A DNA stretch of 64,000 nt from Anoxybacteroides tepidamans (lineage in GTDB: Bacteria; Bacillota; Bacilli; Bacillales; Anoxybacillaceae): the NCBI RefSeq assembly GCF_014201465.1, contig NZ_JACHEP010000003.1, positions 92,827-156,826 on the forward strand, given 5' to 3'. Positions 62,508 to 62,781 of the stretch are shown piece after piece (within the stretch, counting starts at the first letter, position 1; each line of letters begins with the position of its first letter). The position numbers and the translations under genes were made by a program. Below the pieces are notes generated by a model. It searched no databases. It was given only the letters and a program-made list of their open reading frames with translations, and was not told the DNA's origin.

Positions 62508-62781
62508 GGAGCGTTCTATCTATATAAATACAACTGGGAGATTTAACTTATGGCGGACGAAAAAACAGCCACCCTATTTTTTCGACTGTCGGAGGCAAGT
62601 CTGTGACTTGCCTTCGTCACGCCTTCGCGTGACAGAGGACCGAACAACCAATCGTTTCACCGACAAATGTATTTGTCTGGAAACGTTGTTGTTCGGTCAC
62701 CCGACAGTCGAAAAACACCGATTACTCCATAAAAGACGAAAACGTTAAAGTTCTAAATTGCATTTATATATGTAACGCTCC
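62508..62781. mobile_element. 274-bp fold-back (MITE-like) element with cloverleaf interior
   Basis: Ends in GGAGCGTT (62508-62515) and its inverse (62781-62774); the inverted similarity continues imperfectly for about 40 bp (..ATATAAATxCAA..TTTAAC). An inner perfect 15-bp pairing, TTTTTCGACTGTCGG (62578-62592) with 62701-62715, closes a loop holding three perfect hairpins. No ORF over 40 codons and no transposase, so if mobile it is non-autonomous. No clear target duplication was found. One arm recurs at 12188-12250. It sits between dnaB and purA, replacing a normal intergenic gap. Confidence 0.7.
62578..62715 (-). ncRNA. Possible structured RNA inside the fold-back element
   Basis: Read on the minus strand from 62715: closing stem, then a long hairpin of three stacked stems (62698-62688 with 62648-62638; 62685-62680 with 62658-62653; 62677-62671 with 62668-62662), a 7-bp hairpin with GAAG loop (62633-62616), a 9-bp hairpin with ACA loop (62613-62593), and the closing strand. 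All stems are perfect. It would be transcribed by read-through from dnaB. Whether it acts as RNA or only as DNA hairpins is unknown. Confidence 0.35.

Follow-up and report, generated by a model that had tools for sequence, protein, structure and literature searches.

A putative IS630-type MITE between dnaB and purA of Anoxybacteroides tepidamans and its predicted cloverleaf core in MITEs of different end families

The interiors of MITEs are commonly seen as degenerate leftovers, and the usual question asked of such elements is which transposase moves them. A TA duplication is a feature of the Correia (CREE) and ERIC elements. In a 2024 review, Correia is described as a short bacterial MITE with more than 120 copies in one genome, whose transcripts are processed by RNase III, and ERIC as another, which unmasks an RNase E site (PMC10969869). 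The RUP of Streptococcus pneumoniae is a 107-bp repeat with IS630-Spn1-like ends and 110 copies in one genome, and its predicted fold brings these ends into pairing (PMC3049150). Here, we report a 246-bp element of Anoxybacteroides tepidamans that is very probably a non-autonomous IS630-type MITE, mobilised in trans and built around a shared core module. RUP would be its closest analogue, both being short repeats with terminal inverted repeats that resemble the ends of IS630 elements; the comparison is one of descriptions. The element, here called type 1, differs from RUP in its length, in its host family and in having a four-way core that is found also in IS4-ended MITEs. From Correia and ERIC, which it resembles as a short bacterial MITE, it is set apart by its hosts. 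The element itself is of a known kind, and what was unexpected is the occurrence of a cloverleaf core across MITEs of different end families. In these elements the interior keeps its fold through changes in stem sequence and is common to different transposase families, which makes selection on the folded interior testable, and this sharing raises the possibility that the fold itself may matter. The elements also offer a family of markers for genome plasticity in Geobacillus and Anoxybacillus, two genera used in biotechnology.

The window analysed here is a stretch of 64,000 nucleotides from the 3.39 Mb draft genome of A. tepidamans (54 contigs). dnaB and purA both lie on its minus strand, dnaB ending at 62799 and purA starting at about 62380, and the gap between them holds no listed ORF of 60 aa or more. 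In this gap the first-pass annotation had described a fold-back structure at 62508-62781 with arms of about 85-90 bp, an exact 15-bp closing stem, GGAGCGTT at either end and no transposase. The fold-back was borne out: the region lies within the gap and forms one long hairpin system, the computed DNA fold of 62480-62810 having an energy of -71.9 kcal/mol against a shuffle mean of -33.4 (z -9.35; 0/100 shuffles as stable) and the minus-strand RNA fold of the fold-back region a z of -10.37 (0/100 shuffles as stable). The closing stem was also recovered, and the element, 246 bp in a gap free of such ORFs, indeed carries no transposase. The arms are not continuous; they are made up instead of a 27-nt terminal repeat, 78% complementary, of weakly pairing linkers and of a separately folding four-way core of about 139 nt (Table 1). 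Nor does the element end in GGAGCGTT, since those 8 bp belong to the host terminator and other copies mostly stop inside them. In the left arm (62536-62606, plus strand) a Shine-Dalgarno-like GGGAG is followed by an 18-codon ATG frame starting at 62550; this small ORF was set aside as due to chance, none being seen in the examined Geobacillus-type copies. The reading as a known RNA family was dropped, Rfam giving no match in the window at gathering score (best sub-threshold 22.7 bits versus 79).

Table 1. Positions in the window of the element, its parts and the adjoining host features.
Feature	Position	Strand	Basis
Probable IS630-type MITE (type 1), 246 bp between target TAs	62523-62768	+	borders from 52 two-ended copies
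TA target duplication, left copy	62521-62522	.	empty site L132 vs L015; TA both sides in 41/52
TA target duplication, right copy	62769-62770	.	same basis as left TA copy
Left terminal inverted repeat TATATAAATACAACTGGGAGATTTAAC	62521-62547	+	inverted-repeat search; matches IS630 element ends
Right terminal inverted repeat TATATAAATGCAATTTAGAACTTTAAC	62744-62770	-	inverted-repeat search; matches IS630 element ends
Four-way-junction (cloverleaf) core	62577-62715	.	covariance model R1 match (C3:155403-155541)
5' arm of core stem P1 (partner 62701-62715)	62578-62592	.	exact 15-bp inverted repeat
Predicted host dnaB intrinsic terminator stem, 3' arm; T-run 62501-62506 on minus strand	62508-62515	-	sequence; same-genus L094-L097
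Predicted host dnaB intrinsic terminator stem, 5' arm	62774-62781	-	sequence; same-genus relatives
Truncated second type-1 copy (right half)	12183-12251	-	sequence match

With window positions 62490-62800 as query, the best 40 of 92 candidates in the A. tepidamans genome were scored, and the long copies listed were 88-94% identical. Apart from the window copy, the matches of long copies begin at 62514-62523 and end at 62758-62774, mostly at 62518-62521 and 62770-62771. The left-end pattern, allowing up to three mismatches, occurs in 61 places of the genome, truncated copies included (reversed control 0), and the R1 covariance model of the core has at least 53 matches there, at no fewer than 49 distinct places. 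Both ends were recognised in 52 copies, taken from 62 stretches of the genome, and exactly half of them (26/52) are 246 bp long. The left 9-mer TATAAATAC is identical in 51/52 copies and the right 9-mer GCATTTATA is present in 34/52. A TA stands on both sides in 41/52 copies and is missing on one or both sides in 11/52; C precedes the left TA in 30/52 and G follows the right TA in 25/52. Relative to genes the copies show no orientation bias (15 + 14 in tandem, 10 each divergent and convergent, 3 unclear); not one of the 52 is spanned by a heuristic ORF, and 10 overlap an ORF end.

In the first-pass annotation the structure had been taken for a small mobilisable element in a normally quiet gap, with a related arm elsewhere, and many copies sharply bordered at 62508 and 62781 had been set as a check of mobility. 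The copies exist by the dozen in this genome, although those borders were wrong, and the related arm corresponds to the truncated right half in the window (92.9% over 70 aligned nt). The gap also lived up to its description. Among 40 relatives searched, one genome per species, the dnaB-purA locus was returned for 29, and all 29 are without the type-1 element between the two genes; 21 of the 29 loci align across the joined flanks of the window copy. A sequence confined to this gap in all relatives, which would have spoken for a conserved local structure, was therefore not what was seen. Together with IS elements that have matching ends, the copies and the empty gaps point to a mobile element without a transposase of its own. 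An unoccupied site was found within the A. tepidamans genome as well: L132, which lies beside an IS630 copy, is the empty form of the L015 site, and L015 with one TA removed aligns to it over 96 nt at 90.6% identity with 0 gaps. The alignment of L084 with an unoccupied locus of Geobacillus proteiniphilus is looser (70.6%, 6 gaps).

Around the element the minus strand reads GGAGCGTT...AACGCTCCGTTTTTT, which is the sequence of an intrinsic terminator of dnaB. GGAGCGTT/AACGCTCC and the T-run are dnaB's own terminator, outside the mobile part; in same-genus relatives a hairpin with a T-run is seen here by eye in four of six (L094-L097) and not clearly in L098 and L099. The outer 8 bp, by forming this terminator, are what could be said for reading the whole fold as a conserved regulatory structure of the dnaB-purA gap (a terminator, riboswitch or attenuator) instead of a mobile element, but the 29/29 element-free relatives rule this out, dozens of unrelated places in the genome are occupied, and its probability is practically nil. 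Only marginally less improbable is a preference of the element for terminator hairpins. The window copy does sit exactly within the terminator loop, but a strong stem (score of 10 or more) surrounds this copy alone, 1/52 where 0.27 would be expected from chance flank pairing, and a score of 8 is reached by 2/52 (1.56 expected); terminator-loop targeting is contradicted by these counts, and the flanks show nothing beyond the CTAG preference. With a strong stem around one of the 52 copies only, the insertion into the terminator seems to have been accidental. In the predicted minus-strand RNA fold the terminator arms stay paired around the element.

Besides being short, free of a transposase gene, bounded by terminal inverted repeats, flanked by a target-site duplication and dispersed in sharp-bordered copies, as bacterial MITEs are, the element has ends that resemble those of IS630-family elements. 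A 28-nt pattern, built from the ends of the MITE and of two IS630 copies of the A. tepidamans genome, was applied with a threshold of 40 or more on the summed score of 56, and both ends were found about 1190 bp apart at 20/29 IS630 loci, compared with 0/87 shuffled loci; nine of the 29 fail this two-end test, and L191 (right) and L194 (left) are counted with one weak end each. The matching IS630-family elements of Geobacillus and Anoxybacillus differ from the MITE in being about 1.19 kb long and having a transposase, and a search of the tested loci detected no type-1 interior within the IS630 elements, the matches in L198 and L051 being separate MITE copies outside the IS. IS630-family transposase genes are present in the A. 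tepidamans genome (PF13358; NCBIfam NF033545), and an IS630 transposase fragment has matches in 37/61 genomes at E 1e-20 or better. The copy with the best-matching end in this genome (C1:1-840) measures about 720 bp from end to end, is split in two frames and is probably internally deleted; the 54-contig draft, from which one may be missing, yielded no intact IS630 copy with such ends and shows no active transposase. We infer that a matching transposase of the IS630 family would act in trans, cut the element at its TATATAAATRCAA ends and insert it at a TA, often within CTAG, with duplication of the TA. In the present case the insertion would have been into the loop of the dnaB terminator, and the two terminator arms should still be able to pair around the element because it folds back on itself. 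The middle is a module not bound to a single transposase. Its fold may be of use, most likely as DNA, for instance by drawing the two ends close to each other or by making insertions tolerable.

In the type-1 core, stem P1 is accompanied by two short hairpins (P2, P3) and one long hairpin (P4). Its structure was written by hand from a single-sequence fold and the inverted repeats, the automatic RNAalifold result on type-1 alignments being poor. The 67 core representatives were reduced to 61 by dropping 6 with internal deletions, and the alignment comprises 45 of these. Over these 45 cores and 58 pairs, 92.6% of the cells are paired, and two-sided changes occur in 16 pairs against a shuffle mean of 7.8 (0/500); when partners are slid, pairing falls to 31-43%. 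Mismatches show a mild G-U excess (82 G-U versus 60 A-C cells, in 33 versus 28 pairs). Within a genome the core exceeds the arms in conservation by very little, with mean column identities of 0.963 (left arm), 0.969 (core) and 0.959 (right arm) in A. tepidamans and of 0.904, 0.931 and 0.896 in Geobacillus. Across genera, conservation is higher in the interior than in the linkers to the ends, and the right end is conserved as well as the core: against a Geobacillus consensus of 19/38 copies, those with both ends recognised, the core is identical at 109/128 positions, the linkers at 21/33 and 15/31, the left end at 19/27 and the right end at 23/27. Four copies of about 185 bp are without the long hairpin P4 and have four different junctions (L010, L027, L061, L077), which suggests independent hairpin deletions. 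A core-less type-1 form of 96 bp also occurs.

A related core is found between other ends. Among 19 listed R1 matches in the genomes G003, G004, G010 and G014, 15 have a P1 of GCTTTTCTGCC/GGCAGAAAAGC or near it in place of the type-1 TTTTTCGACTGTCGG/CCGACAGTCGAAAAA; these 15 elements have the four-way layout of type 1 and the P4 tip in common with it, and their stem sequences are largely different. The other four, in G004, are diverged type-1-like copies whose single-sequence folds are without the full cloverleaf. In G003, G014 and the A. tepidamans genome, elements of the second kind (type 2) have CAGGCGTGTTGATTAACC and CACGAGTGTTGATTATCC, or sequences close to these, as their borders. In the loci examined there are 17 distinct copies, 13 of 238-249 bp and 4 of 109-118 bp that are core-less or nearly so, and target duplications of 9 or 10 bp accompany 10/17 (8 perfect, 2 with one mismatch). 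Three core-less forms of 109 bp occupy different sites, two with perfect 9-bp duplications. RNAalifold gave the same cloverleaf on the 13 full-length type-2 copies alone and recovered it partially on 29 divergent type-2 cores. With 24 of these 29 core representatives aligned and a hand-written structure, 94.1% of the cells are paired and 17/55 pairs have two-sided changes against a shuffle mean of 9.7 (0/500); there is hardly any G-U excess (43 G-U versus 39 A-C). Type-2 sequence has matches in 17/41 genomes, every one of them from the same bacterial family (25 of the 41) and some with the core only, and in the A. tepidamans genome it occurs in at least 19 places at 90-100% identity. One full type-2 MITE (L093, G000:C3:157089-157330) lies about 264 bp past the window end and about 1.5 kb from the element in the dnaB-purA gap.

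The type-2 ends match those of IS5377 (IS4 family) at 23/23 and 21/23 positions on two Geobacillus plasmids and at 23 and 20 in L051, the maximum in 200 shuffles being 17. Of the two plasmid copies of IS5377, L293 has a 9-bp duplication in its flanks and L292 has none. IS5377 differs from the MITE in being an autonomous IS, and none of the three IS4-type loci tested (L051, L292, L293) yielded the type-2 interior. An IS701 fragment in L063 was dropped as a candidate partner of type 2, the ends of IS5377 being those that match. A third end type is seen in G010, where CTATATAGATTCAAG...TTTCCGACATA ends enclose a type-2 core. The pattern for these ends was drawn from the G010 copies and a different IS630 subgroup of the A. 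tepidamans genome on contig C34; nine G010 copies score 22-30 of 30 at the left end and 21-23 at the right, and the ends of the C34 subgroup score 28 and 26 at a distance of about 1185 bp. One copy in the A. tepidamans genome (L078) is a chimera, with type 1 over its first 173 nt (95.4%) followed by type 2 (85.2%, 135 nt), the two overlapping in P4. The homology of type 1 and type 2 rests mainly on the covariance model, which matches both types and gives E values down to 1e-14 with type 2, on the chimera and on the layout, because direct blastn between the types aligns only 56 nt (71%, E 0.007). On these sequence comparisons the core is common to MITEs with three kinds of ends, those of two IS630 subgroups and of IS5377/IS4.

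What the core may do is a separate question. Since it is common to elements of different transposase families, it is unlikely to be the binding site of one transposase. The existence of core-less forms, two of them 109-bp elements with perfect 9-bp duplications, suggests that it is dispensable for movement. We tentatively favour a fold that is helpful at the DNA level: the cloverleaf would be a functional module independent of the transposase, a self-folding cassette, taken up with at least three kinds of ends, to which each of these elements would owe part of its high copy number within one bacterial family. It would probably work as folded DNA, either by pairing the ends or by rendering insertions tolerable. 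This proposal stands well short of an even chance, and a neutral passenger is about as likely. As a passenger, for which the probability comes fairly near to even, the core would have no function and would have been spread by recombination among MITEs and by transposition, its pairing kept by hairpin-templated (quasi-palindrome) repair and not by selection. Such repair can itself make two-sided changes, and the half-and-half chimera indicates that exchange happens; the three 109-bp forms sit at different sites as if they had moved, P4 is missing at four different junctions, the excess of G-U over A-C is mild in type 1 and hardly seen in type 2, and within genomes the core is little better conserved than the arms. 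Against a passenger stand the better conservation of the core than of the linkers between A. tepidamans and Geobacillus, with the reservation that the right end equals the core, and the persistence of the layout and of the P4-tip bases with three end types despite a near-complete change of P1.

A third possibility, that the core works as structured RNA within host transcripts and stabilises, protects or processes mRNA, is rather improbable. A role of this kind has been proposed for other bacterial MITEs, and the review cited above offers precedents in RNase III processing of Correia transcripts and the RNase E site unmasked by ERIC (PMC10969869). The RNA fold is very stable, covariation is strong in both types and type 1 has its mild G-U excess, but type 2 has hardly any, the copies are not oriented with respect to genes and Rfam holds no match. 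The mild or absent G-U excess and the lack of orientation bias lend little support to a function as one-strand RNA, which was accordingly dropped as a candidate, and leave a DNA-level fold, an RNA read from either strand and neutral hairpin-templated repair.

The R1 core was found in 35/37 genomes of the same bacterial family, in 5 of them weakly (E 2.9e-5 to 5e-4), in 0/24 genomes of other families and, with the best 8 candidates scored per genome, in 0/397 other genomes of the phylum. A DNA search with the element gave matches in 34/101 genomes, with 7 candidates scored per genome. A literature search on Geobacillus, Anoxybacillus and Bacillaceae, at the level of listings and covering a minority of the subscription journals, turned up no account of such elements. 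Phage records gave no match to the element; the P4 pattern occurs in 2 viral contigs, and a P4-pattern match in Granulosicoccaceae was rejected as a lone hairpin without the other stems. A copy in G027 (genus g4, by inference Geobacillus) is 96% identical to the element, the other G027 copies listed being 73-79% identical, an indication of intergeneric transfer. Among plasmids, pHTA426 has a full-length relative (74.6%), and the core part of the element is present on two plasmids of Anoxybacillus amylolyticus. The genome G006, assigned to the genus of the window, has core matches whose coordinates coincide with those on the two A. amylolyticus plasmids, so that the window probably stems from a relative of this species.

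Some further observations concern the surroundings of individual copies. The A. tepidamans genome and Anoxybacillus pushchinoensis share a segment in which several MITE ends are similarly arranged (L027/L067 and L033/L171), possibly by horizontal transfer. A 210-aa ORF (window 11574-12206), by eye similar to a secreted protease, takes its 3' end, with the last codons and the stop, from the truncated type-1 right half in the window. Adjoining this copy is an IS4-family transposase remnant (window 12355-12636, minus strand) that by eye resembles the IS5377-like protein of L051. On plasmid pDSM15939_2 of Anoxybacillus amylolyticus (L228), the gene for a nuclease annotated as HNH/ENDO VII family overlaps at its 3' end with a type-1 core (2501-2641).
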